This document shows positions 43,036 through 56,538 of a stretch of 64,000 nt of DNA, one piece after another; the stretch's first letter is position 1, and the number at the start of each line of letters is the position of its first letter. The translations under genes were made by a program, and so were the position numbers. The stretch comes from an uncultured Eubacteriales bacterium. GTDB lineage: Bacteria; Bacillota; Clostridia; Christensenellales; Aristaeellaceae. The DNA is taken from NCBI GenBank assembly GCA_902764875.1, contig CACWXP010000009.1, positions 59,762-123,761 on the forward strand, in the 5' to 3' direction. Under the pieces are notes generated by a model. It was given only the letters and a program-made list of their open reading frames with translations. It was not told where the DNA came from and ran no database searches.

Positions 43036-44904
43036 TTATTCCACCGTCACGCTCTTCGCCAGGTTCCGCGGCTTGTCCACGTCCAGGCCCCGGTTCACGC
43101 TCGTGTAATATCCCAGCAGCTGCAGCGGCACCACCGCCAGCGAAGCCATGAAGTGTTCGTCGCTCTTGGGAATATAAACCGTGAAATTCACCGAGTCCTC
43201 CACCGAGAAGTTCCCGTTCGTGGTAATCCCCAGCAGGTACGCCCCACGGCTCTTGCATTCCATCATGTTGGAAACCGTTTTCTCATAAAGAGCCTTCTGC
43301 GTCAGCACGCCGATCACCAGCGTGTTGTTCTCAATCAGGCTGATGGTCCCGTGCTTCAGCTCGCCCGCAGCATAGGCTTCCGAATGGATATAGCTGATTT
43401 CCTTCATTTTCAGGCTGCCCTCCAGGCTGATGGCATAGTCCAGCCCCCGGCCGATGAAGAAAATGTCGTGCGTGTTGGCCATCTTCGAGCTGAACCACTG
43501 CAGCCGTTCCTTCTCCTCCAGGATCCGCGTAATTTTATCGGGAATCAGCGCCAGCTCCGCCAGCAGTCTTTCCGCTTCCTCCCCGCTGATCACTTCCCGC
43601 ACCAGTGCCAGGTAAATCGCCAGAACGTCCGCGGCGATCAGCTGTGCGCTGTAGGCCTTCGTGGTCGCCACGGCGATCTCCGGCCCCGCCAGTGTGTAGA
43701 GCACGTGGTCCGCTTCCCGGGCGATCGTGGATCCGATCACGTTCACAATCGCCAGCGTCACAGCCCCCCGCTCCTTTGCAACCCGCAAAGCCGCCAGGCT
43801 GTCCGCCGTCTCCCCGGACTGTGAGATCACGAGCACCAGGGTTTTGTCGTTCACCGGGATACTCCGGTACCGGAATTCCGAGGCCAGCTCCACCCGCACC
43901 GGGATCCCGGCCAGGTCCTCAATCACGTACTGGGCAGCCATCCCCACGTGCCACGCCGAACCGCAGGCAACAATGTCAATCTGCCCGATGTCTTTGATAA
44001 ATTCCTCCGTCAGTCCCGTGGCCGAAAGGTCGATCTTCCCGTCCTTCACGATGCTGTTCAGCGTGTCCCGGACGGCGGCAGGCTGCTCGTGGATTTCCTT
44101 GAGCATGAAGTGCTCAAACCCGCCCTTTTCCGCCGCCTCCGCGTCCCAGGTGATCTCCGTCTTCTCCATGGCAACCTCGTCGCCGTTCAGGTCATAGAAG
44201 ACCACCTTCCCCGGCGAAACCCTTGCCACCTGCAGGTTGTCGATGTAATACACCTGCCGCGTGTATTTCAGGATCGCCGGCACGTCCGAGGCCAGGTACG
44301 ATTCGCCGTCCGCTTCCCCGATAATCAGCGGCGAATCCTTCCGTGCGGCAAAGATCTCGTCCGGAAAGTCCTTGAACATCAGCGCCAGTGCATAACTGCC
44401 GCGGATCCGCACCATCGTTCTCGTAATGGCGTCCACCGGGCCGATCTTGTATTTCTTGTAGTAGTAATCCACCAGCTTCACGGCCACCTCCGTGTCCGTA
44501 TCGCTGTAGAAAACATACCCGTGCCGCAGCAGCTTTTCCTTCAGCTCCGTATAGTTCTCAATGATCCCGTTGTGCACGCCCACCACGTCGCTTTCCACCG
44601 CGCCGCTGCCGCTGCCGCTGCAGTTGCCGCTCACGTGCGGGTGCGCGTTCACGACGCTGGGATCCCCGTGGGTCGCCCACCGGGTGTGCCCGATGCCGCA
44701 ACAGCCCTCAAGCGCCCGGCCCTGGTCCGTCTTGTCCGCCAGGTGGTACAGTTTCCCCGTGGCCTTCACCACTTCGGCCAGGGCCGTTCCGTTCCGAACC
44801 GCGAGCCCCGCGGAGTCATAACCCCGGTATTCCAGGCGTGAAAGGCTGTCCAGCAGGATCGGCGCCGCCTGGCGCCGGCCGATGTATCCGACAATTCCGC
44901 ACAT
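43036..44904 (-). CDS. glmS: Glutamine-fructose-6-phosphate aminotransferase (isomerizing)
   Basis: 622 residues. Catalytic Cys2 in MCGIVGYIG; glutaminase blocks LSRLEYRGYDSAGLAV and CCGIGHTRWATHG; two SIS domains with LVISQSGETADSLAALR and the C-terminal DKPRNLAKSVTVE. It makes glucosamine-6-phosphate for wall synthesis. GGAGG lies ahead of the ATG. Unlike many Firmicutes it lacks the glmS ribozyme: the leader is only ~70 nt and holds a terminator-like hairpin instead. Confidence 0.97.
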   Translation of the reverse strand: MCGIVGYIGRRQAAPILLDSLSRLEYRGYDSAGLAVRNGTALAEVVKATGKLYHLADKTDQGRALEGCCGIGHTRWATHGDPSVVNAHPHVSGNCSGSGSGAVESDVVGVHNGIIENYTELKEKLLRHGYVFYSDTDTEVAVKLVDYYYKKYKIGPVDAITRTMVRIRGSYALALMFKDFPDEIFAARKDSPLIIGEADGESYLASDVPAILKYTRQVYYIDNLQVARVSPGKVVFYDLNGDEVAMEKTEITWDAEAAEKGGFEHFMLKEIHEQPAAVRDTLNSIVKDGKIDLSATGLTEEFIKDIGQIDIVACGSAWHVGMAAQYVIEDLAGIPVRVELASEFRYRSIPVNDKTLVLVISQSGETADSLAALRVAKERGAVTLAIVNVIGSTIAREADHVLYTLAGPEIAVATTKAYSAQLIAADVLAIYLALVREVISGEEAERLLAELALIPDKITRILEEKERLQWFSSKMANTHDIFFIGRGLDYAISLEGSLKMKEISYIHSEAYAAGELKHGTISLIENNTLVIGVLTQKALYEKTVSNMMECKSRGAYLLGITTNGNFSVEDSVNFTVYIPKSDEHFMASLAVVPLQLLGYYTSVNRGLDVDKPRNLAKSVTVE

Positions 44905-44921: not shown

Positions 44922-44970
44922 TCAAATAAAAGCAGGGAAATGATCCGTACAGCCGGATTTCATCTCCCTG
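44922..44970 (-). terminator. Leader hairpin/attenuator candidate of glmS
   Basis: Minus strand CAGGGAGATGAAATCCG (44970-44954) pairs with CGGATCATTTCCCTG (44946-44932) over ~15 bp with a small bulge and 6-nt loop, followed by CTTTTATTT. It starts ~9 nt after the -10 box and ends ~18 nt before the ATG, so every glmS transcript from this promoter must pass it. Confidence 0.75.
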
Positions 44971-44979
44971 TACTTGTGG

Positions 44980-45008
44980 ATTTTATCACTCACGCTCCTT
45001 TTTGTCAA
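44980..45008 (-). promoter_or_regulatory. Promoter of glmS
   Basis: Minus strand TTGACA (45008-45003), 17-nt spacer, TAAAAT (44985-44980). Confidence 0.8.
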
Positions 45009-45044
45009 TACATTATAATACATTAATACAACTTGGGAACAGAC

Positions 45045-45075
45045 GGAACCGGACGTCGCGAAGGACGCCCGGTCC
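45045..45075 (-). terminator. GC-rich hairpin after amt-PII
   Basis: GGAACCGGACGTC (45045-45057) pairs with GACGCCCGGTCC (45064-45075) around GCGAAG; no U-tract on the minus strand, so it may be a weak terminator or a 3'-end stabiliser. Confidence 0.45.
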
Positions 45076-45094
45076 GAAGATCCTTGCCGATTGC

Positions 45095-46810
45095 TTATTC
45101 GTCCGACTGCAGCGCGTCGTAGCCTTCCTCGCCGGTCCGGACGCGGACAACGTTCTCCACGTCCGTCACGAAGATCTTGCCGTCGCCGATATGACCCGTA
45201 TGCAGCACGCTCCGCGCCGTGTCGATCACCTCGCGCACAGGCACCTTGCTCACAACGATGTCCACCTGCACCTTCGGCAGCAGCGTAGTCTCCACCGGTG
45301 TGCCGCGGTAGTATTCTGGCTTGCCCTTCTGCGCGCCGTAGCCCATCACGTTGGTCACCGTCATACCCGTAATGCCGATCTTGTTCATCGCCGTCTTCAG
45401 GCTTTCCAGGCTGGCCGGACGGCAGATAATCTGAACCCTGGTGTAAACCGGTTCGTCAGGCGCCTTTTCCTTCGGCTTCCTGGCCGGAGCCTCTCCAACA
45501 GCCGCTGCAGCCGGAACGGGAGCCGTCTGCGGCAACGCTTCTCCGCCGACGCTCTCTTCGGGCAGCATCGCGATCCCCGCGTATGCGGTGGGCAGGCCGT
45601 GCTCGCTGCGGTCGAGGCCCATGATTTCGTCTTCCGCGTCCGCCCGCAGGCCGATGGTCTTCTTAATAAGGAAGAATACCACTGTGATGATCACCGCCGT
45701 CCACGCGATGGTGGCCAGCACGCCGATGCATTGTACGCCGAAGAATTTGAATCCTCCGCCGTAGAACACACCCTTCATCGTGGTCTGTCCTGTGGCGAAC
45801 AGGCCGGTCAGAATCGTGCCCAGTGCGCCGCACACGCCATGAACGGAAATCGCGCCCACCGGGTCGTCAATCTTCACAACCTTGTCGAAGAAGCCGACCG
45901 ACAGCACCACAGCAACGCCGCACACCAGGCCGATCACCGCCGCTCCGAAGGGGTTCACCGCGTCGCAGCCCGCCGTAATGCCGACCAGGCCAGCCAGCGC
46001 CGCGTTGAATGTCATGGACACATCCGGTTTGCCGTAGCGTATCCAGGTGTAGATCATGCAAACCAGCGTTGCCAGCGCCGCCGCCAGGTTCGTGTTGAAG
46101 AACACCAGGCTGGCCGAACCGATCAGTTCGTCGCTGTCCATGCCCACGGTGGAAGCGCCGTTGAAGCCGAACCAGCAGAACCAGAGGATGAATACGCCCA
46201 GCGCGGCGATGGAAAGGTTGTGGCCCAGGATCGCCCGGGGCTTGCCGTCCTTGCCGTACTTGCCGATGCGCGGCCCCAGCATCTTTGCGCCGATCAGCGC
46301 GCAAACGCCGCCGACCATGTGCACCGCTGTGGATCCGGCAAAGTCGTGGAATCCCATTTCCGCCAGCCAGCCGCCGCCCCAGATCCAGTGACCGCTCACC
46401 GGATAGATGAACAGCGAAATCGCCGCGGAGTAGATGCAGTAGGCGGAGAACTTGGTCCGCTCTGCCATCGCGCCGGAAACGATCGTTGCCGATGTCGCGC
46501 AGAAAACCGTCTGGAAAATCGCAAAGGCCCACAGCGGCACGCCCGCGGGAAGAACGCTGCTGTAGTCCTTTATGATGAAAGGGTCGATCCATCCGAACAG
46601 CGCCGTGCCGGTCCCGAACATAATCCCGTAGCCCAGCAGCCAGTACAGCGGCGTGCCGATGCAGAAGTCCATCAGGTTCTTCATCAGAATATTGCCGGTA
46701 TTCTTGGCCCGGGTAAAGCCGGCTTCACACATGGCAAAGCCTGCCTGCATGAAGAAAACCAGTGCCGCGCCCAGCAGCACCCAGATCGTGTTCGCAGGAG
46801 AGTACGTCAT
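45095..46810 (-). CDS. Ammonium transporter fused to a PII (GlnB/GlnK) domain
   Basis: 571 residues. Residues 1-~410 are an Amt channel with eleven helices (FMQAGFAMCEAGFTRAKNTG, GHWIWGGGWLA, WFGFNGAS, AVSVHGVCG-type blocks). After a ~40-residue proline/alanine linker the last ~115 residues are a PII protein: YTRVQIICRPASLESL, the T-loop with PEYYRGTPVE, and HTGHIGDGKIFV (PII B-loop). Normally PII is separate and plugs Amt; here the sensor is tethered. Promoter and leader hairpin lie at 46832-46926. Between glmS and gltD. Confidence 0.93.
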   Translation of the reverse strand: MTYSPANTIWVLLGAALVFFMQAGFAMCEAGFTRAKNTGNILMKNLMDFCIGTPLYWLLGYGIMFGTGTALFGWIDPFIIKDYSSVLPAGVPLWAFAIFQTVFCATSATIVSGAMAERTKFSAYCIYSAAISLFIYPVSGHWIWGGGWLAEMGFHDFAGSTAVHMVGGVCALIGAKMLGPRIGKYGKDGKPRAILGHNLSIAALGVFILWFCWFGFNGASTVGMDSDELIGSASLVFFNTNLAAALATLVCMIYTWIRYGKPDVSMTFNAALAGLVGITAGCDAVNPFGAAVIGLVCGVAVVLSVGFFDKVVKIDDPVGAISVHGVCGALGTILTGLFATGQTTMKGVFYGGGFKFFGVQCIGVLATIAWTAVIITVVFFLIKKTIGLRADAEDEIMGLDRSEHGLPTAYAGIAMLPEESVGGEALPQTAPVPAAAAVGEAPARKPKEKAPDEPVYTRVQIICRPASLESLKTAMNKIGITGMTVTNVMGYGAQKGKPEYYRGTPVETTLLPKVQVDIVVSKVPVREVIDTARSVLHTGHIGDGKIFVTDVENVVRVRTGEEGYDALQSDE

Positions 46811-46831
46811 TCAGATCGCCTTCCGTTTCCT

Positions 46832-46892
46832 GAAAAAATAAAATCAAAAGAGGCGCCGGGTGCCTCAGCACACCCTTGCGCCTCTTTGATTG
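46832..46892 (-). terminator. Leader hairpin/attenuator candidate of amt-PII
   Basis: Minus strand ATCAAAGAGGCGC (46890-46878) pairs with GCGCCTCTTTTGAT (46856-46843), with an inner GGGTG/CACCC stem, followed by a T-rich run. The 5' arm begins at about the first transcribed base and contains GCAAGGG (46879-46873). The T-run ends ~22 nt before the ATG. It could also end read-through from gltD, but the amt promoter lies upstream of it. Confidence 0.8.
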
Positions 46893-46897
46893 CCGAG

Positions 46898-46926
46898 ATT
46901 GTATACAATGTTCAATCCGTTGTCAA
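46898..46926 (-). promoter_or_regulatory. Promoter of amt-PII
   Basis: Minus strand TTGACA (46926-46921), 17-nt spacer, TACAAT (46903-46898). Confidence 0.82.
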
Positions 46927-46973
46927 GGGGGAAAACATTCGAAAAACAATTTGAGTTTCCCACACCCTTGAAC

Positions 46974-46993
46974 GAACTATTCACTATCCACTA
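46974..46993. repeat. Second copy of the AGTGGAT heptamer repeat
   Basis: ACTATTCACTATCCACTA overlaps the gltD stop codon (46991-46993); the same unit is arrayed after glmS at 42997-43028. Confidence 0.65.
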
Positions 46994-48394
46994 AGCCCTG
47001 CGCAGCAAAGCGTCCGCCTCAAGCGCGGCCGCCCGGCCGTCCGCCAGCGCCCGCACCACCAGGCTCTGCCCCGTGCGCATGTCGCCTGCGCTGAACAGTT
47101 TCCCGCCCAGGTAATGCGAAGAGTCCTCCGGCATCAGCCGTCCCCGTCCGTCCGCGATCAGCGAAAGGGTTTCCAGTGTTTTCCCGTCGCAGCCGACAAA
47201 TCCGGCGGCAATCAGCATCAATTCGCACGCCAGTGTCTGCTCCGATCCGGCAATCGGCTCCATTTTCCCTTCCGCCGTCCGGCGCAGTTTCACGGTCTCC
47301 GCCCCGGTAATATGGTTCTGCTCGTCCGTCAATATCCGCTTCACCGTCGTTTCATAGATCCGCGGATCGCTCCCCTGCACGCAGATGGCTTCCAGCTGGC
47401 CGTAATCCGTGCGCAGCGTCCGCGGCCACTCCGGCCAGGGGTTCCCCGCCGTCCGGAATTCCGGGGGCGCGGGCATCATTTCCAGTTGGGTCACGGAAGC
47501 GCACCCCTGACGCAGCACGGTCCCGACGCAGTCGTTGCCCGTGTCGCCGCCTCCGATCACAAGCACGTGCAGCCCTTTCGCCAGGTTGCAGTCTTCCCCG
47601 GCCAGCAGTTTCCCTGTGGTCTCGGAAAGGAAGTCCACCGCGAAGCGCACGCCCTCCGCGTCCATGTGCTCCACGTTCAGCGACCGGGGTTTCCTCGCCC
47701 CGCCGCACAGCACGACGGCGTCAAACTTTTCCAGCGCTTCCGCGTCCGCCTCCGTGTTCAGGCGGAAGGTCACGCCTTCCTCCTCCATCAGCCGGATCCG
47801 CCGCGCGACGATGTCCTTCGGCAGTTTCATGTTCGGAATGCCGTACATCAGCAGCCCGCCGGCCCGGTCCGCCCGCTCAAAAACGGTCACCGAGTGTCCC
47901 AGGCGGTTCAGCAGGTCCGCCGTGGCCAGGCCCGAAGGCCCGCTGCCGACCACCGCCGCCCGTTTCCCGGTCCGCTCCCGCGGAAGCCGCGGACGCACCC
48001 AGCTCTCGGCAAATCCTTTTTCGATCAGGTACAGTTCATTGTCCCGGTTGGTCACGCCGTCGTCTGCCAGGTTGCAGGCTTTTTCGCACAGCGCCGGGCA
48101 AACCCGCCCCGTAAATTCCGGGAAAGGCGCCGTTTCCATCAGCCGCTCCAGCGCCTCCCGCTCCTCTCCCCGCCAAAGCAGGTCGTTCCATTCCGGAATC
48201 AGGTTGTGCAAAGGGCATCCGAAGGACGACTGGCAAAAGGGCACTCCGCAGTTCATGCAGCGGCCTGCCTGGCAGTGCCGCTCTTCCGTTCCCTGCGCCG
48301 TGTGCAGGTCCGCGTAGTCGTGCAGGCGCTCCCCAGCGTCCCGGAAAGGGTTTTCTTTTCGGCTGTATTCAAGAAATCCGGTTGCTTTGCCCAT
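46991..48394 (-). CDS. gltD: Glutamate synthase small subunit
   Basis: 467 residues. N-terminal 4Fe-4S ferredoxin-like part with CMNCGVPFCQ and CPALCEKACNL; FAD site VVGSGPSGLATADLLNRLG; NAD(P)H site VIGGGDTGNDCVG. It feeds electrons to GltB for converting 2-oxoglutarate plus glutamine to two glutamates. It starts 4 nt after the gltB stop with GAAGGGGG ahead of the ATG. Confidence 0.95.
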   Translation of the reverse strand: MGKATGFLEYSRKENPFRDAGERLHDYADLHTAQGTEERHCQAGRCMNCGVPFCQSSFGCPLHNLIPEWNDLLWRGEEREALERLMETAPFPEFTGRVCPALCEKACNLADDGVTNRDNELYLIEKGFAESWVRPRLPRERTGKRAAVVGSGPSGLATADLLNRLGHSVTVFERADRAGGLLMYGIPNMKLPKDIVARRIRLMEEEGVTFRLNTEADAEALEKFDAVVLCGGARKPRSLNVEHMDAEGVRFAVDFLSETTGKLLAGEDCNLAKGLHVLVIGGGDTGNDCVGTVLRQGCASVTQLEMMPAPPEFRTAGNPWPEWPRTLRTDYGQLEAICVQGSDPRIYETTVKRILTDEQNHITGAETVKLRRTAEGKMEPIAGSEQTLACELMLIAAGFVGCDGKTLETLSLIADGRGRLMPEDSSHYLGGKLFSAGDMRTGQSLVVRALADGRAAALEADALLRRA

Positions 48395-48398
48395 ATCT

Positions 48399-51300
48399 TC
48401 ACGCCCCCTTCCGCAGATACGCCAGGTATTCGTCCGAAATCACGGCCCTGAATTTTGGCAGCCATGTTCCGAAAGCGTCCAGGATCTCCCGGGCCTTCTT
48501 CGATCCGGTGGCTTTTTCGTGCAGAATCAGCAGCCGTTCCAGCTCGCCGGCTTCGTCCGGGGCCACCGGATACATCCGTACGTGTCCTGTGTTCAGGTGG
48601 TCCTTCAGCGTGTCGTTTTCGTCCAGCACCCAGGCGATGCCGCCGCTCATGCCGGCAGCAAAGTTGTCGCCCACCGGCCCCAGCACGGCCACCCGGCCGC
48701 CTGTCATGTATTCGCATCCGTGGTCGCCCACGCCTTCCGCCACAGCCCACGCGCCGGAGTTCCGCACGGCAAAGCGTTCCCCCGCCATGCCCGCCACAAA
48801 GGCGTAGCCTCCCGTCGCGCCGTAAAGGGCAACGTTGCCGATCAGCGTGTCCTCTTCCCGCCAGATGCTGTCCGCCGGCGGGCAAACCGCCAGCGTCCCG
48901 CCGCTCAGTCCTTTGCCCAGGTAGTCGTTCGCAACGCCGAACAGCGTAATCGTCTGCCCCGCCGACAGGAAAGCCCCGAACGACTGCCCGCCACAGCCCA
49001 GCGCCTGGATGTTCCGGTCGCCCTTCAACATAGTGCCGAAGGCCCGGTCCGTCGTCATCAGGTGCACGTGGTTCTGGAACAGTCGCGCGTCCGTCCGTTC
49101 CGACAGGTGGAAGTCGAATTTCTTTTCAGGCTGGAAATGCGTGTTCCGCGCAAACCCGATCAGGTCGCTCAGGTCCGTCGCGCAGTCCGCCTTCATCTTC
49201 AGCAGGTCGCTCCGCCCCACCAGTTCGCCGATGGTCCGTGCGCCCAGTCTGGCCATGATCTCGCGCAGCTGTTCCGCAATAAACAGCATGAACCGCTCCA
49301 CATATTCCGGTTTCCCGGTAAATTTTTTCCGCAGTTCCGGGTTCTGAGTCGCAATGCCGAAGGGGCACGTGCCCAAATGGCAAACCCGCATCATCCGGCA
49401 TCCCATCGTCACCAGCGGCGCCGTGGCAAAGCCGAATTCTTCCGCGCCAAGCAGCAGCGCCACCGCCACGTCGTGCCCGGTCATCAGTTTACCGTCCGTC
49501 TCCAGCGTAACCTGCTGGCGCAGCCGGTTGCGGCAGAGCACCTGGTGCGCTTCCGCCAGCCCGATCTCCCAGGGCAGCCCCGTGTGATGCACGCTGGAAA
49601 GCGGCACGGCGCCGGTTCCGCCTTCTCCGCCGCTGATCAGGATCCCGCCGGCGCCGGCTTTTGCCACGCCGCTGGCAATGGTTCCGACCCCGGTCGAAGA
49701 AACCAGTTTCACCGTAATTTTCGCGTTTTCATTGGCGCACTGCAGGTCGTAAATCAGTTCCGCAAGGTCTTCAATGGAATAGATGTCGTGGTGCGGCGGC
49801 GGGGAAATCAGCGAGATCCCCGGCGTGGAACAGCGGGTCTTCGCCACGCTCTCCGTCACCTTCGCCCCGGGCAGGTGTCCGCCCTCGCCAGGCTTGGCGC
49901 CCTGGGCCATCTTGATCTGGATCTCCTTCGCGCTCAGCAGGTATTCCCGCGTCACGCCGAAGCGTCCCGAAGCAACCTGTTTGATCGCCGAGTTCAGCTC
50001 CGTCCCGAAGCGTTCGGCCAGTTCGCCGCCTTCGCCGCTGTTCGATTTTCCGCCCAGATGGTTCATGGCCTTCGCCATGCATTCGTGGGCTTCCTGAGAA
50101 ATGGAACCGTAGCTCATGGCCCCCGTTCGGAAGCGCTTCACGATGGATGCCGCGCTTTCGACTTCTTCGATCGGCACGGCCCGGCAGGCCTCAAACCGGA
50201 AGTCCAGCATAGCCCGGATGGTCCGCGGCCCGTCCTGCTCAATGGACGCCGCGTACCGGTCAAACAGCGCCCGGTCGTCGGTCCAAACCGCCTGCTGAAG
50301 CAGATGGATGGTTTCCGGAGAATACAGGTGTTCCTCTGTCCCTCCGCCGGTGCGCAGCCGGTGCACGCCCACGGCCGGCAGGCCTTTTTCGTCGGTCTCC
50401 CCGAAGGCTTCCGCGTGGTGGAAGCGGCTGTCGCTTTCCACCCGGTTCAGGTCCGTTCCGCCCAGCACACACGGCGTGTTCGTAAAGTATTTCTCCACAA
50501 AAGGCCGGTCCAGCCCGACGGTCTCAAACAGCTGCGCGCTCTGATAAGCCTGCAGGGTCGAAACGCCCATCTTCGAGGCGATCTTCAGTACGCCCGCGCA
50601 CAACGCTTTGTCGTAGCTCGCCAGCGCTTCCTCCGCCGTCTTGCCAATCGCGCCCTTGTCGCAAAGGTTCCGTATGCAGTCGTGGGCCAGGTAGGGGTTC
50701 ACCGCCCGCGCGCCGAAGGCCACCAGCAGCGCCAGGTGATGCACGTCCCGCGGCTCCCCGCTCTCCAGCACGACGGAGACCGCCGTCCGCTTCTTGATGC
50801 GGATCAGGTGCTGTTCAAGCGCCGAAACCGCCAGCAGTGAGGGAATGGCCAGCGTCTGCTCGTCCAGTCCCCGGTCGCTCAGGATCAGCACGTTAATCCG
50901 GTCCCGGCACGCCGCGTCGCAGGCCGCGAACAGCGCGTCCAGCGCGTCCCGCAGGCTTCCGTCGACAGGGTACAGCAGCGATGCCGTCCGCACGGAAAAC
51001 GCCGGACGCCGGATCTCCCGGATCCGCCGGAATTCCTCCTCCGTCAGCACCGGCGAGGGCAGCTCCAGCACCGTGCAGTTCTTCGGATCGCCGGACAGCA
51101 GGTTGCCGTCGTCCCCGATGTAAACGCTGCAGTCTGTCTTGATTTCTTCCCGCAGCGCGTCGATCGGCGGATTCGTCACCTGGGCAAACCGCTGTTTGAA
51201 GTAGTCAAACAGCGAAGGATGCGTCTTCGAAAGCACCGCCAGCGGTTCGTCCGCGCCCATGGAAACGATGGGCTCCGTCCCGTTCTCCGCCATCGGCCGC

Positions 51301-52721
51301 AATATGTCCTGAACGTCCTCCCATGTATAGTGGAAGGCTTTCTCCAGTTTTTTCAGTTCTTCCTCTCCGGGGGCCGCCTGCCCCTCCGGGCTCTCCGGCA
51401 AATCCTGCAGCCGGATCAGATTCCGCATCCATTCGGTATACGGATGCTGCTTCGCGTAGCGCGTCTTGATCTCGCTGCTCTCCGAAAGCTTTCCGATCCC
51501 AAGGTCCGCCTCCAGCACGTCCCCGGCCTTCAGCTTCCATCTCCGAACGATGTGCGCGTTCTCTTCAAAAAGCACCCCAGCCTCCGAGGAAAGGATCAGC
51601 CGGTGGTCGTCCGTCAGCGCGCAGCGCAGCGGCCGCAGGCCGTTCCGGTCCAACGATGCGCATACCTTTTCCCCGTCAGAATAGAGCACCGCCGCCGGCC
51701 CGTCCCAGGGCTCCATCATCGTGGCATAGTAGCGGTAAAGGTCCCGCCACGGCGTTTCCCGCTCCACTCCCTGCCAGGGTTCCGGCATCAGGATCATCCC
51801 GGCCAAAGCCATGGGAATCCCGTTCATCGCCAGGAATTCCAGCGTGTTGTCCAGCATCTGGCTGTCGCTGCCGCCTTCCGCTACGACGGGCAGCACCCGC
51901 TGCATCTCCTCCCCCATCACCGGCGAGCGCATGGTCTCCTCCCGGGCCTTCATCCGGTCGTGGTTGCCGCGGATGGTGTTGATTTCCCCGTTGTGCAGCA
52001 GCATCCGCTGGGGATGCGCCTTGCTCCAGGAGGGGAAGGTGTTGGTCGAGAAGCGCGAATGCACCATCGCCATCCGGCTGGCATACCGGGCGTCCTGCAG
52101 GTCGTCGTAAAATGACCGCAATTGGCTCACCAGCATCATGCCCTTGTAGACAATGGTTCTCCCGGACAGCGAGCAGATGTACGTGTCCGTGTCCTGCTTT
52201 TCAAAAACCCGCCGCAGCACATAAAGCCGCCGGTCAAAGTCCAGTCCGCTCTTCACCTCTGCCGGGCGGCGCAGGAAGCACTGGCGAATCCGCGGCATGG
52301 TGCTGCGGGCCCCGGCGCCCAGCTGCGCCGGGTGGCAGGGCACGTTCCGCCAGCCCAGCACCGGAATCTGTTCCGCCACTGCCAGCTGTTCGAAAATCCG
52401 GCAGGCGTTTTCCGCGCCCACCTCGTCCTCCGGCAAAAAAAACATCCCCACGCCGTACTCTCCCGGCTGTCCCAGGAGGATTCCCTCTTCCCGGGCCCAG
52501 GCAGAAAAAAGGCTGTGGGGCAATTCCGTCAGAATCCCGACCCCGTCGCCGGTGGTTCCCAGGGCGTCGCTGCCGGCCCGGTGGGCTAGGCGCTCCACAA
52601 TGGAAAGCGCCTGGTCCACGGTCCGGTGGGTGGCTCGCCCGTTCAGGTCCGCCACCGCGCCGACGCCGCAGTTCTCGTGCTCAAATTCGGACTGGTAAAG
52701 GGGATATTGTCGATCTCGCAT
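48399..52721 (-). CDS. gltB: Glutamate synthase large subunit
   Basis: 1440 residues. The catalytic Cys is residue 18 in EHENCGVGAVADLNG after a 17-residue propeptide, as expected. Central and FMN domains carry SGEGGELAERFG and GGEGGTGAVPLSSVHHTG; the 3Fe-4S cysteines are in MRVCHLGTCPFGIATQN; the C-terminal GXGXG beta-helix contains AGMSGGIAWVLDE. The ATG at 52721 is used because an upstream TTG would erase the GGGGG ribosome site. Only 46 nt from the ANTAR gene, so likely in the glnA transcript. Confidence 0.95.
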   Translation of the reverse strand: MRDRQYPLYQSEFEHENCGVGAVADLNGRATHRTVDQALSIVERLAHRAGSDALGTTGDGVGILTELPHSLFSAWAREEGILLGQPGEYGVGMFFLPEDEVGAENACRIFEQLAVAEQIPVLGWRNVPCHPAQLGAGARSTMPRIRQCFLRRPAEVKSGLDFDRRLYVLRRVFEKQDTDTYICSLSGRTIVYKGMMLVSQLRSFYDDLQDARYASRMAMVHSRFSTNTFPSWSKAHPQRMLLHNGEINTIRGNHDRMKAREETMRSPVMGEEMQRVLPVVAEGGSDSQMLDNTLEFLAMNGIPMALAGMILMPEPWQGVERETPWRDLYRYYATMMEPWDGPAAVLYSDGEKVCASLDRNGLRPLRCALTDDHRLILSSEAGVLFEENAHIVRRWKLKAGDVLEADLGIGKLSESSEIKTRYAKQHPYTEWMRNLIRLQDLPESPEGQAAPGEEELKKLEKAFHYTWEDVQDILRPMAENGTEPIVSMGADEPLAVLSKTHPSLFDYFKQRFAQVTNPPIDALREEIKTDCSVYIGDDGNLLSGDPKNCTVLELPSPVLTEEEFRRIREIRRPAFSVRTASLLYPVDGSLRDALDALFAACDAACRDRINVLILSDRGLDEQTLAIPSLLAVSALEQHLIRIKKRTAVSVVLESGEPRDVHHLALLVAFGARAVNPYLAHDCIRNLCDKGAIGKTAEEALASYDKALCAGVLKIASKMGVSTLQAYQSAQLFETVGLDRPFVEKYFTNTPCVLGGTDLNRVESDSRFHHAEAFGETDEKGLPAVGVHRLRTGGGTEEHLYSPETIHLLQQAVWTDDRALFDRYAASIEQDGPRTIRAMLDFRFEACRAVPIEEVESAASIVKRFRTGAMSYGSISQEAHECMAKAMNHLGGKSNSGEGGELAERFGTELNSAIKQVASGRFGVTREYLLSAKEIQIKMAQGAKPGEGGHLPGAKVTESVAKTRCSTPGISLISPPPHHDIYSIEDLAELIYDLQCANENAKITVKLVSSTGVGTIASGVAKAGAGGILISGGEGGTGAVPLSSVHHTGLPWEIGLAEAHQVLCRNRLRQQVTLETDGKLMTGHDVAVALLLGAEEFGFATAPLVTMGCRMMRVCHLGTCPFGIATQNPELRKKFTGKPEYVERFMLFIAEQLREIMARLGARTIGELVGRSDLLKMKADCATDLSDLIGFARNTHFQPEKKFDFHLSERTDARLFQNHVHLMTTDRAFGTMLKGDRNIQALGCGGQSFGAFLSAGQTITLFGVANDYLGKGLSGGTLAVCPPADSIWREEDTLIGNVALYGATGGYAFVAGMAGERFAVRNSGAWAVAEGVGDHGCEYMTGGRVAVLGPVGDNFAAGMSGGIAWVLDENDTLKDHLNTGHVRMYPVAPDEAGELERLLILHEKATGSKKAREILDAFGTWLPKFRAVISDEYLAYLRKGA

Positions 52722-52767
52722 GTTCCGTTCCCCCAATGAAAGTGTTAATGTCCAAAATCTCTGAATC

Positions 52768-53292
52768 CTATTTTTGATCCTTCACAATTCGAGCCGCGTA
52801 AGCAGTCATTTTCATGCTGTGGTCCATCGCCTGCTTCTGCAGCAGGTGATGCGCCTCCGGTTCAGTAAGATGCAGCTGCTTCATCAGGATTTCCTTCGCC
52901 TGTTCCACCAGTTCCTTGTCCGCCCCCAGCCGCCGGGGCATCTGCCGCCGGTGCAGCTGGTTCAGCATCTCCAGTGCTCCCACCACCGTCTGACCGCTGG
53001 TCGGCAGCGTCAGCCGGAAGATCTCCGGCGTCTCGCAGTTTTCCAGCACGGCCGGCTTCGCGATCCAAAGGATCTGAACCCGGTCGCCGTAGTCCCAAAC
53101 CAGTTCCTCCGGTCGGCAGTCCGGAATCAGGCCGAGATAGATCAGTATGCTGTCCTCGCTTTCACTCAGGGCTCTGCGCAGGCTGCTTCCCGATCCGCAG
53201 CAGCGGTATACGGAATAACCGGAGGAAGCCAGCAACCGGGCTATCTGATCGCGGTTCGTTTCCGATATGCCGGCGATGATCATTCGCGCCAC
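52768..53292 (-). CDS. ANTAR-domain RNA-binding antiterminator with degenerate receiver domain
   Basis: 174 residues. The last ~60 residues are an ANTAR domain: KELVEQAKEILMKQLHL, then TEPEAHHLLQKQAMD and MTAYAARIV, the three-helix RNA-binding fold. Residues 1-~115 have the size of a response-regulator receiver, but the phosphorylation Asp strand reads SILIYLGLIPD and the early acidic pair is missing, so it is a pseudo-receiver. Start is GTG with GGAGG 8 nt upstream. It sits between glnA and gltB, like NitR-type nitrogen antiterminators of clostridia. Targets are not proved. Confidence 0.88.
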   Translation of the reverse strand: MARMIIAGISETNRDQIARLLASSGYSVYRCCGSGSSLRRALSESEDSILIYLGLIPDCRPEELVWDYGDRVQILWIAKPAVLENCETPEIFRLTLPTSGQTVVGALEMLNQLHRRQMPRRLGADKELVEQAKEILMKQLHLTEPEAHHLLQKQAMDHSMKMTAYAARIVKDQK

Positions 53293-53332
53293 TGGCCGTT
53301 CCTCCTCTCGCCAAAGAATACGCTCCCCGCGA

Positions 53333-54664
53333 TTAGTACATCACGATATACCGGTCAATCTCCCACTGGCTCACGTGCGTCCGATAGGCGTCCCATTCCT
53401 TCTCTTTGCCTTCCACGTACTGGCCCATCACGTGCTCGCCCAGCGCGTCGGCAATCACCTTATCCTCTTTCAGGCATTCAACGGCTTCCTTCAGCGTCCC
53501 GGGCAGCGAGCGGATGCCCTTGGCTTCCCGCGTTGTCGCGTCCATGGCAAAGATGTTTTCGGTAATTTCATCCGGCGGGGTCAGGCCCTTCTTAATGCCG
53601 TCCAGTCCGGCCGCCAGGCAGACCGCCATGTTCAGGTAGGGGTTGCAGCTGGGATCCGGGCACCGCAGCTCCACGCGGGTTCCCATGCCCCTCGCCGCCG
53701 GAATGCGGATCAGCGCGCTCCGGTTGCTGGCGCTCCATGCCAGGTAGCACGGCGCTTCATAGCCCGGCACCAGCCGCTTGTAGCTGTTCACCAGCGGGTT
53801 GGTCACCGCCGCCATACCGCGGATGTGCTCCAGAATGCCCGCGATGAAGGCATACGCTTCCTTGCTCAGGCCCCGGCTGTCGCTGGGATCCGCGAAAACG
53901 TTCTTTCCGTCCTTGAAAAGGCTCATGTTCGTATGCATGCCGCTGCCGTTGATGCCGAACACAGGCTTCGGCATGAACGTCGCGTGCAGGCCGTTCTTCT
54001 GCGCCAGCGTCTTCACCGCCAGCTTGAAGGTCATAATGTTGTCCGCCGCCCGCAGCGCGTCGGCATACTTGAAGTCGATTTCGTGCTGGCCCGCGGCCAC
54101 TTCATGATGGCTGGCCTCGATTTCAAAGCCCATCTGTTCCAGCGCCATGCAGATCTCCCGCCGGGTGCTCTCGCCGTGGTCCAGCGGTCCCAGGTCGAAG
54201 TATCCCGCTTCGTCCGAAGTCGTGGTCGTGGGCTTGCCGCTCTCGTCCGTCTGGAAAAGGAAGAATTCCATTTCCGGGCCGACGTTGAAGGAATAGCCCA
54301 TCTCCGCCGCTTTCGCCAGCACCTTCTTCAGCACGCCCCGCGGATCTCCCATGAAGGGCGTTCCGTCCGGGTTGTAAACGTCGCAGATCAGCCGGGCCAC
54401 TTTTCCATGCTGCGGCCGCCAGGGCAGGATCGCGAAGGTATTCAGGTCCGGCCGCAGGTACTGGTCGCTCTCGTTGATGCGCACAAAGCCTTCAATGGAG
54501 CTGCCATCGATCATGATCTCATTGTTGACCGCCTTTTCAATCTGGCTGGCCGTAATGGCCACGTTCTTCAGCTGGCCGAAAATGTCGGTGAACTGCATGC
54601 GGATAAACTCCACATCGTCCTCCTTCACCATCCGGATGATATCTTCCTTCGTGTACTTGCTCAT
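53333..54664 (-). CDS. glnA: Glutamine synthetase, type I-alpha
   Basis: 443 residues, the short GSI-alpha length. Blocks: [68 protein letters not shown] and [18 protein letters not shown]. There is no adenylylation Tyr loop, so control should be by feedback inhibition and gene regulation as in Bacillus. ATG at 54664 with GGGGG ahead. First gene of glnA-ANTAR-gltB-gltD; promoter and leader hairpin at 54702-54788. Confidence 0.96.
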
Positions 54665-54701
54665 AACTGAAACCCCCTTCATAATTCTCTTTCCCTGGCT
54701 G

Positions 54702-54747
54702 AAATGAAAACAGGCAAGTTCAGCCATGGACCATGGCTCCCTTGCCT
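54702..54747 (-). terminator. Leader hairpin/attenuator candidate of glnA
   Basis: Minus strand AGGCAAG (54747-54741) pairs with CTTGCCT (54718-54712); inside is a second perfect stem AGCCATG/CATGGCT with a 3-nt loop; then GTTTTCATTT. GCAAGGG (54745-54739) begins 13 nt after the -10 box. The ATG follows 38 nt after the T-run. Confidence 0.82.
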
Positions 54748-54758
54748 TGTATGCCGGG

Positions 54759-54788
54759 ATCATATCACCCCTCACCGCAGCCTGTCAA
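54759..54788 (-). promoter_or_regulatory. Promoter of glnA operon
   Basis: Minus strand TTGACA (54788-54783), 18-nt spacer, TATGAT (54764-54759). Back-to-back with the asnB promoter; the 53 bases between them are pyrimidine-rich on the plus strand. Confidence 0.8.
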
Positions 54789-54841
54789 GCACCCAGATTG
54801 TTTTCCCTTTGTTTTCGTTTGTTCTTTCCGCTGCCGCCTTC

Positions 54842-54871
54842 TTGACAAAGCAGCCCCTGGAATGATACCAT
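54842..54871 (+). promoter_or_regulatory. Promoter of asnB-guaA
   Basis: TTGACA (54842-54847), 18-nt spacer, TACCAT (54866-54871), the same unusual 18-nt spacing as the divergent glnA promoter. Confidence 0.72.
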
Positions 54872-54882
54872 ACCTGCCAACA

Positions 54883-54930
54883 AGGCAAGGGTGTCCTGTT
54901 TTTCATTTGGACCTTTTGCCTTTTTTGTTT
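54883..54930 (+). terminator. Leader hairpin/attenuator candidate of asnB
   Basis: AGGCAAGGGTGTCC (54883-54896) pairs with GGACCTTTTGCCT (54909-54921) with one bulged U and a 12-nt loop, followed by TTTTTTGTTT. GCAAGGG (54885-54891) begins 13 nt after the -10 box, as in glnA. It ends 27 nt before the asnB ATG. Confidence 0.85.
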
Positions 54931-54957: not shown

Positions 54958-56538
54958 ATGTGTTCCATCTTCGGTCTCACCAGTGCCAGGGTTCCCCGTG
55001 AATTGATTGAAACCTGCTTCAACCGCACGATCTCCAGGGGCCCGGATATGAGCCGGCTGGAGGAAATCCCCGGCGGCGTCCTCGGCTTCCACCGCCTGGC
55101 AATCATGGGCCTGAATGAACGCGGAATGCAGCCCTTCCATCTGGGAAAGGACGCCGTCGTCTGCAACGGTGAGCTCTACGGCTTCCGTCCCCTGCGCGAG
55201 CGCCTCATGGAGCACTATGAGATTAAGGGAGAATCCGACTGCGAAATTCTTCTCCCTCTCTATCATGAGTACGGCGTGGAAATGTTCAAAACTCTGGATG
55301 CCGAGTTCGCCCTCATCCTCTACGATGGAGAGCAGAACAAGGTCATCGCCGCCCGGGATCCGATCGGTATCCGCCCCCTCTATTACGGCCGCCTCGAAGA
55401 CGGCGAATGGGCCTTCGCCAGCGAGCCGAAGAACCTCATGGGCCTTTGCGAAACGATTCTTCCCTTCCCGCCCGGTCATTACTGGATGGACGGCGAATTC
55501 ATTCAGTACGCAGATCCTGCTTATGTAGGTTATTTCACCATGAAGACGGAAGAGGATGTCTGCGCAAAGCTCCGCCGCCTGCTGATGGACGGCGTGGAGA
55601 AGCGCCTGGATGCCGATGCACCGGTAGGCTTCCTGCTTTCCGGCGGTCTGGATTCCTCCCTCGTCTGCGCCATAGCCCAGAAACTCCTGCCCCATCCGAT
55701 CCGCACCTTCGCCATCGGTATGGATATCGATGCCATCGATCTGAAGTATGCCCGCATGGTAGCGGATTATATCGGTTCGGAGCATACCGAAGTGATTATC
55801 TCCGAAAAAGATGTCCTCGAGGCCCTGCCCAAGGTCGTGGAGCTCCTGGCCACCTGGGATATCACCACCATCCGCGCCTCCATCGGCATGTATCTCATCT
55901 GCAAGTGGATCCATGAAAACACCGATGTCCGGGTGCTCCTGACCGGTGAAATTTCCGATGAACTCTTCGGTTATAAGTATACCGACTTCGCGCCGTCCGC
56001 CGCCGCCTTCCAGGAGGAGGCCGAAAAGCGCATCCGCGAGCTCCATGTCTACGATGTTCTCCGCGCCGACCGCTGCATCTCCGTCAACTCCCTGGAGGCT
56101 CGTGTGCCCTTCGGCGATCTCAAGTTCGTCCGCTATGCCATGAGCATCGATCCCGAGCTGAAGATGAACAACCACAACATGGGCAAATACCTCATCCGCA
56201 AGGCCTTCGCCAAGGATAAAATCCTCCCGGACGAAATTCTCTGGCGCCAGAAAGCCGCCTTCTCCGATGCCGTCGGCCATTCCATGGTCAACGATCTCAA
56301 GGCTCTGGCGGAAAGAACCTACACAGACAAGGAATTCGTCGAAAAGGCGGCGAAATATGATTACTGTCCTCCTTTCACCAAGGAGAGCCTGCTCTACCGG
56401 GAGCTCTTCGAGCAGTTCTATCCCGGCCAGGCCCGCATGATCCCGGACTTCTGGATGCCCAACAAATCCTGGCCCGGCTGCAATGTGGACGATCCCTCCG
56501 CCCGCGTCCTCTCCAACTACGGCGCCAGCGGGGAGTAA
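54958..56538 (+). CDS. asnB: Asparagine synthase (glutamine-hydrolysing), AsnB type
   Basis: 526 residues. MCSIFGLT gives the Cys2 glutaminase nucleophile; [22 protein letters not shown] and [13 protein letters not shown] complete the Ntn domain; [12 protein letters not shown] is the PP-loop of the synthetase domain, followed by [15 protein letters not shown]. It makes asparagine from aspartate and glutamine with ATP. The ATG at 54958 has CAGGAGG upstream and exposes Cys2; in-frame codons further upstream would bury it. Followed by guaA after 68 nt on the same strand. Confidence 0.95.

Follow-up and report, generated by a model that had tools for sequence, protein, structure and literature searches.

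Within 64,000 nucleotides (nt) of contig CACWXP010000009.1 from an uncultured Eubacteriales bacterium (assembly GCA_902764875.1; hereafter the window), four genes, glnA, asnB, a fused amt-PII gene and glmS, each stand behind a promoter that leads directly into an intrinsic terminator. The glnA, asnB and amt leaders also carry a small hairpin with the loop signature of ANTAR antitermination targets, and a gene for an ANTAR protein lies beside glnA. On the sequence features described here, these leaders are very likely one-hairpin, ANTAR-controlled transcription attenuators, in which a pseudo-receiver ANTAR protein would antiterminate through one hexaloop at the 5' end of the transcript.

Promoter-terminator leaders in the window

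The type I glutamine synthetase gene glnA (PF00120 and PF03951) occupies 53333–54664 on the minus strand. About 40 nt after it begins the gene of the ANTAR-domain protein (52768–53292, minus strand), which has a GTG start, encodes 174 residues comprising a pseudo-receiver and an ANTAR domain (PF03861), and lies between glnA and gltB. On the plus strand, asnB encodes a glutamine-hydrolysing asparagine synthase (54958–56538; PF00733, PF13537) and is followed by guaA. The ammonium transporter fused to a PII domain (45095–46810; PF00909 and PF00543) and glmS (43036–44904; SIS and GATase domains) are both on the minus strand.

The four promoters match the consensus at 10–11 of 12 positions each. 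They read TTGACA-18-TATGAT for glnA (54759–54788, minus strand), a block conserved in related glnA leaders, TTGACA-18-TACCAT for asnB (54842–54871, plus strand), TTGACA-17-TACAAT for amt (46898–46926, minus strand) and TTGACA-17-TAAAAT for glmS (44980–45008, minus strand). A terminator stem with a U-rich run follows at 54703–54747 (glnA, minus strand), 54882–54930 (asnB, plus strand), 46835–46891 (amt, minus strand) and 44925–44970 (glmS, minus strand, without the ANTAR hexaloop). These hairpins with their U-runs have shuffle z-scores of −3.3, −3.3, −5.4 and −4.0, respectively, each beating 198–200 of 200 shuffles in folding energy. No Rfam family, whether riboswitch or T-box, was found at the leaders at gathering thresholds in the window and 29 loci.

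The string GCAAGGG starts 13 nt past the −10 box in the glnA and asnB leaders and 18 nt past it in amt. By itself it is not enriched in the window (13 observed against 13.5 expected from shuffles), so its significance rests on position and conservation. It forms part of a small hairpin, GGC(AAGGGA)GCC in the glnA transcript (54735–54746, minus strand), GGC(AAGGGU)GUC in asnB (54884–54895, plus strand) and GCGC(AAGGGU)GUGC in amt (46868–46881, minus strand), the latter two reading GGC(AAGGGT)GTC and GCGC(AAGGGT)GTGC in the DNA. The hairpin carries the ANTAR signature, namely a hexaloop whose first base is A (A1) and whose fourth is G (G4), a closing C-G pair, a short stem, and exclusivity with the terminator, whose 5' arm in glnA includes the 5' half of the hexaloop hairpin. 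In predicted folds of the window sequences the small hairpin alone is weak (−2.8, −0.1 and −3.4 kcal/mol for glnA, asnB and amt), whereas the terminators reach −21.8, −18.8 and −31.2 kcal/mol. Termination would thus be the expected default, and the hairpin would need help.

A first-pass annotation of this DNA had located the four promoter-into-terminator leaders and the spacing of GCAAGGG, and the sequence, promoter matches and strong folds confirm both. Its remark that no room exists upstream for a riboswitch aptamer also holds. It was right that the stems differ while the 5' arm recurs, although it had missed that this element forms a small hairpin of its own. The glmS gene, counted there as a fourth example, does have a promoter-terminator leader, but the hexaloop has been lost from it in this genome. 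By eye, glmS leaders without the hexaloop (window, 44933–44970; the near relative L032, 19362–19421) allow a GTACAG/CTGTAC pairing as an alternative to the terminator.

Conservation before related genes

We compared two sets of relatives. For the first, which comes almost entirely from the same genus, stretches with a maximum length of 20 kb were read gene by gene. The second comprises 80 named loci fetched by their ANTAR protein, nearly all of them clostridial and in many cases derived from rumen or gut samples, and overlaps the genomes of the first set. In the first set, within which gene neighbourhoods are syntenic across the genus, promoter and hairpin were present in 29 of 31 glnA rows, the exceptions being L052 and L060, the latter from another family. 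The AAGGGU loop occurs in 11 of 14 amt rows, the element in 10 of 29 asnB rows and the hexaloop in 6 of 9 glmS rows, with absences in the window, in L032 and in L057, where the promoter was not found. In genomes that have no asnB leader, the leader divergent from glnA often serves a dapL-like gene (one representative was named by family search, the others by clustering with it).

A motif scan of the 80 loci yielded 99 promoter-hexaloop-terminator matches in 856,281 bases, distributed over 64 of the loci, and three shuffles of the same bases gave 2, 0 and 1 matches. Counted by gene, promoter and hexaloop precede 60 of 64 glnA, 14 of 16 dapL and 7 of 10 amt genes. Two of the glnA misses (L206, L199) retain AGC(AAGGGN)GCC with one mispair; in L233 the loop is altered, and L226 has no element.

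Three other features were seen beside these leaders. Seven of 10 glmS genes listed without an attenuator (in L181, L182, L174, L208, L220, L221 and L222) have GGC(AAGGGR)GCC directly 5' of the start codon, overlapping the ribosome site, which possibly reflects ANTAR control at translation rather than termination. When searched for across the genus, this start-codon pattern turned up eight times, in seven cases within attenuator matches of the model R1 described below. In L219, L227 and L230 an amt hexaloop-terminator lies in the asnB-amt gap and its promoter was not found, suggesting that the attenuator may work when not fused to a promoter. Lastly, asnB in L176, L206, L175 and L180 is preceded by a leader with T-box-like GGTGGCACCACG; no Rfam match was found in the two of these loci that were searched (L176, L206).

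Distribution in the genome, genus and class

A first model, R1, matched 40 of 45 genus genomes at E <= 0.01, with matches also 5' of gltB, gltD, purF, pyrG and purA (three genus hits were not fetched). At strict thresholds it matched 2 of 391 genomes of the class and 16 of 297 of the order, of which seven belong to the own family. Ten order-level R1 loci outside the genus were inspected, and the C(A..G..)G hexaloop is present in six and absent from four. R1 matches at AAGACAAGGGG hairpins in L107, L108 and L109 have no promoter and were set aside as noise; in L107 and L108 these hairpins adjoin a REP-associated transposase. Two hits in the own genome (C4:74039 and C5:108093) were likewise judged noise.

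A second model, R2, runs from the −35 box to the U-run and was built from 35 diverse leaders, so that it carries promoter spacing and core sequence. At E < 1e-3 it found in the own genome the leaders of asnB, glnA, a PPDK-domain protein (G000:C4:88754-88830), purF (G000:C4:99535-99611) and gdhA (G000:C22:29065-29153); amt and glmS scored E 0.21 and 0.24. A promoter-spaced pattern gave eight matches in the same genome, namely glnA, asnB, amt, purF, gdhA and three judged noise. The PPDK-like gene was named by its likeness to that of L139 (PF01326). The motif repeatedly precedes the gene of a protein of about 858 residues whose only recognised domain is the PPDK nucleotide-binding domain (L270, L139, L110, L112, L287, L307).

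Across the class, R2 at E <= 1e-3 hit 51 of 391 genomes from 42 genera. The hexaloop hairpin is present in 63 of the 67 hits outside the own genome, a count to be read with the knowledge that R2 favours promoter-hexaloop geometry by design. Forty-six of the 67 lie 5' of genes that by BLAST resemble GSIII (23), amt (6, of which one at 34% identity), purF (5), gdhA (4), pyrG (3), glnA (2), PPDK-like (2) and asnB (1). For the remaining 21, family searches identified asnA twice, as well as purC, cyanate lyase and a class II amidotransferase.

The ANTAR protein

The window protein matches PF03861 with 58.8 bits against a cut-off of 27.3 and is the single ANTAR match in the whole genome, which is 93% complete. 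Its predicted structure (pLDDT 88.6, pTM 0.65) finds the EutV-RNA complex 6ww6 as best fold match (E 5.4e-11, TM score about 0.5), followed by Rv1626 and AmiR. TM scores near 0.5, which come with a large root-mean-square deviation, probably reflect domain orientation. Profile and fold matches give the N-terminus a receiver fold, and the phospho-acceptor is absent, EutV D54 aligning to Leu in the profile alignment. A family search of this protein found neither a receiver-family nor a NIT domain. Residues equivalent to EutV K149, E160 and M172 do not vary among 28 proteins, and Y164 corresponds to His in all 28; the RNA-contact roles of the EutV residues follow PMC8934654.

An ANTAR domain is present in 196 of the 391 class genomes, and where its position is listed it lies within 15 kb of an R2 hit in 17 of 35 positive genomes. 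In one genome (G457) the ANTAR gene is followed by a hexaloop attenuator and then by GSIII. Directly 5' of the ANTAR gene itself, no such attenuator was found in the named set (0 of 73). As a separate observation, the ammonium transporter and PII regulator of the window are a single fused protein, which could be the partner of an ANTAR regulator that is not phosphorylated.

Anatomy of the leaders and covariation

Of 66 glnA leaders, five could not be aligned on the loop and were left out. In the remaining 61, information is highest over the −35 box, over the −10 box together with a TG that precedes it, and over C-A-A-G-G-G-N-G-Y-C. The distance from the end of the −10 box to loop position 1 is 14 nt in 30 leaders, 15 in 26 and 16 in 5, leaving 11–13 nt between the −10 box and the stem. 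If transcription starts about 7 nt past the −10 box, some 5–7 nt of transcript would precede the glnA hairpin stem and about 10 that of the window amt. In the class leaders the −10 box lies 12–16 nt from the loop in 58 of 63, a spacing of the kind that R2 favours.

In the 35 diverse leaders (alignment A4) the invariant columns 3' of the promoter are the C, A1, A2, G4 and the closing G. Since these leaders were chosen by their hairpin core, their stems pair by construction and the 100% pairing is no evidence. Alignment A1 consists of 41 leaders picked by gene and promoter and leaves out the two hairpin-less glmS rows of the window and L032; 13 amt leaders were aligned separately (A2). In the 41 leaders the hairpin pairs in 99.2% of cells, with GC 19, GU 17 and AU 5 at the middle pair; for the terminator the figure is 93.4%, and 24 of its changes are two-sided. 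In five leaders a G-to-A change at stem column 15 is compensated at both its hairpin and its terminator partner, as expected of mutually exclusive helices.

The base pairs of R2 are those of the terminator, so that covariation of the hairpin among its class hits was not imposed, though the geometry was favoured. Both variable stem positions are paired in 63 of the 64 class hits that have a C-A-N-N-G-N-N-G core (maximum 59 in 2000 shuffles), and in 56 a fourth position is paired as well (maximum 48 in 2000 shuffles). Taken together, a hairpin stem of at least 3 base pairs is kept through compensatory change and, in predicted folds, excludes the intrinsic terminator through their common 5' arm.

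Proposed mechanism and alternatives

We propose that RNA polymerase starts about 7 nt past the −10 box and transcribes GGC(AANGNN)GYC almost immediately. Left unaided, the 5' half of the hairpin would enter the stronger terminator stem, as predicted folds and covariation suggest, and transcription would end before the gene. An active ANTAR dimer would grip the hexaloop, presumably with G4 flipped out as in EutV, and the small hairpin held in this way would block the terminator so that the gene is transcribed. Because the ANTAR gene lies just 3' of glnA and no such attenuator was found immediately 5' of it, the protein probably amplifies its own synthesis through read-through from glnA. As the receiver fold lacks a phospho-acceptor, nitrogen or glutamine status is probably reported by a ligand or a partner protein and not by a kinase.

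A number of observations weigh against this reading. Three amt rows (L040, L050, L058) and the PPDK-like leader of the own genome have G as the first loop base; the window glmS gene has a true promoter-terminator leader without the shared hexaloop hairpin; and in the named set the element is mostly absent before asnB (13 of 63), glmS (1 of 11), gltB (1 of 69) and gltD (0 of 52). Three RNA contacts of EutV are altered in the window protein (Y164 to H, N173 to D, R175 to S). ANTAR is strongly associated with R2 hits, being present in 48 of 51 R2-positive against 148 of 340 other class genomes (Fisher p ~1e-12), but the test ignores phylogeny; those 148 have an ANTAR domain and no R2 hit at the threshold used, and three R2-positive genomes (G377, G644, G697) have no detected ANTAR domain. 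Some targets in the class survey, with its built-in preference for the geometry, have no plain link to nitrogen, including pyruvate formate-lyase, an ATP-grasp protein, an amino-acid binding protein and, behind the same leader type in two class genomes (L316, L342), the gene of an ATP synthase A chain. Finally, EutV antitermination in vivo needs both hexaloops at a critical spacing (PMC3369931, PMC8934654).

The changed contact residues and the 3 of 51 hit genomes with no detected ANTAR domain would fit a nitrogen-responsive RNA-binding factor other than the ANTAR protein as the reader of the hairpin. We regard such a factor as unlikely, since the conserved positions are the known ANTAR positions, the co-occurrence is strong and the genes are adjacent. 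The recognition element described for ANTAR antitermination is just such an A1 and G4 hexaloop, its short stem overlapping the terminator's 5' arm (PMC3369931). The first-pass annotation had offered the nearby ANTAR protein as an example of a controlling factor, and the hexaloop type and the co-occurrence make it the likely one. Its proposal of a shared nitrogen attenuator family is supported as well, the element being conserved before orthologues such as glnA; a lack of such conservation in relatives, named there as a finding that would speak against the family, did not occur.

Published ANTAR targets are defined by two hexaloops (PMC3369931, PMC8164766), and these leaders could be classical targets of that kind, with a P1 hexaloop upstream and transcripts coming from a promoter further up. 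A loose A1/G4 hexaloop does lie 9–40 nt upstream in 6 of 63 class leaders. Against this, no strict second hexaloop was found at the P1 distance in the 61 glnA leaders, four of which have one elsewhere within 300 nt, or within 60 nt upstream in the 63 class leaders. These counts come from a scan not validated on a proven dual target, as tandem-hexaloop scans at other ANTAR loci, intended as the positive control, gave unconvincing hits only. The argument for a single hexaloop holds without that control because the distance from the promoter argues independently: the −10 box sits at a fixed 14–16 nt from the loop in glnA and at 12–16 nt in most class leaders. A two-hairpin arrangement is accordingly quite improbable. 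By their sequence, these leaders do not conform to the published dual-hexaloop definition of an ANTAR target and would fit the one-hexaloop definition of PMC8934654, whose authors found in the EutV-RNA structure that the dimer grips one hexaloop, took a single hexaloop as the new minimal target, and urged bioinformatic and experimental study of such motifs. The genome searches of PMC3369931 and PMC8164766 required two stem-loops and would for that reason tend to miss leaders with one.

Control by the 5' end of the transcript itself had also been suggested, as in pyrG-type start-site attenuation, in which the choice of the first nucleotides sets termination and no protein factor is involved. 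The terminator begins almost as soon as the transcript does, pyrG itself appears among the targets across the class, and glnA leaders conserve a C-A directly 5' of the stem (C in 56 of 61 leaders, 1.5 bits; A in 59 of 61, 1.8 bits), the A being kept also in at least 90% of the 35 diverse leaders. The region from the −10 box to the stem, which includes the predicted start, is for the most part at 0.1–1.0 bit, whereas loop positions 1–5 reach 1.9–2.0 bits, and the hairpin stem covaries, which a start-site model does not require. The near-invariant hexaloop and covarying stem make this mechanism very unlikely as the main control, and the conserved C-A leaves the 5' end a possible partial role. 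That the leaders are unregulated terminators or stabilising 5' hairpins alike by shared descent only is scarcely credible: regulated behaviour is here a prediction and the genus neighbourhoods are syntenic, but the element recurs before unrelated genes in many families with compensatory changes in two alternative helices.

ANTAR control through one 5'-end hexaloop thus appears the best account of these leaders. It is also somewhat probable that in many Clostridia ammonium and glutamine metabolism (GSI, GSIII, gdhA, gltBD, amt, asnA/asnB, dapL, purF, pyrG and glmS) is under one global ANTAR regulon of such hexaloops, with a pseudo-receiver sensing nitrogen without phosphorylation. This regulon would be an RNA-level counterpart of NtrC or GlnR/TnrA; the hexaloop would lie in the first ~20 nt, and its 5'-end position would replace the capture role of an upstream P1 hairpin. 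The leaders in 51 of 391 sampled class genomes, many before central nitrogen genes, form a natural set of predicted single-hexaloop attenuators that are short enough to be rebuilt with ease in vitro. With them one can ask what makes P1 necessary in certain systems, and also how many anaerobic gut Firmicutes regulate nitrogen. For rumen bacteria, such control would be relevant to the capture of ammonium, a quantity that matters in agriculture.

Comparison with known ANTAR systems

AmiR, one of the fold matches of the window protein, also carries a non-phosphorylated receiver-like domain, and both AmiR at amiE and NasR at nasF resemble the present case in being ANTAR antiterminators of nitrogen genes. 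In clostridia, an ANTAR-like gene beside glnA, NitR/GlnR, has been proposed to act by antitermination; to our knowledge a one-hexaloop leader element is not known there. The nasF and amiE leaders differ in having two hairpins (PMC3369931), NasR binds a single hairpin more weakly (~12 uM; PMC7496416), and its NIT domain is unmatched in the window protein. Actinobacterial ANTAR targets that overlap ribosome sites (PMC8164766) recall the glmS start-codon hairpins in lying near start codons, but they are defined by two stem-loops and, as described there, few lie before a terminator.

The EutV system of Enterococcus faecalis (PMC3369931, PMC8934654) shares the A1/G4 hexaloop, the 3-base-pair stem, the overlap of the hairpin with the 5' arm of the terminator, and an ANTAR protein with a receiver-type N-terminus. 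Here, unlike in EutV, there is one hexaloop instead of two, located at the 5' end right after the promoter, the receiver has no phospho-acceptor, and the regulon concerns ammonium and glutamine metabolism. Searches of the open-licence literature turned up no description of attenuators with a single hexaloop upstream of these genes. The family that the first-pass annotation called uncharacterised deserves that name only in part: it is built on a known recognition unit, the ANTAR hexaloop, and what is new is its use as a single hexaloop at the 5' end of the transcript.

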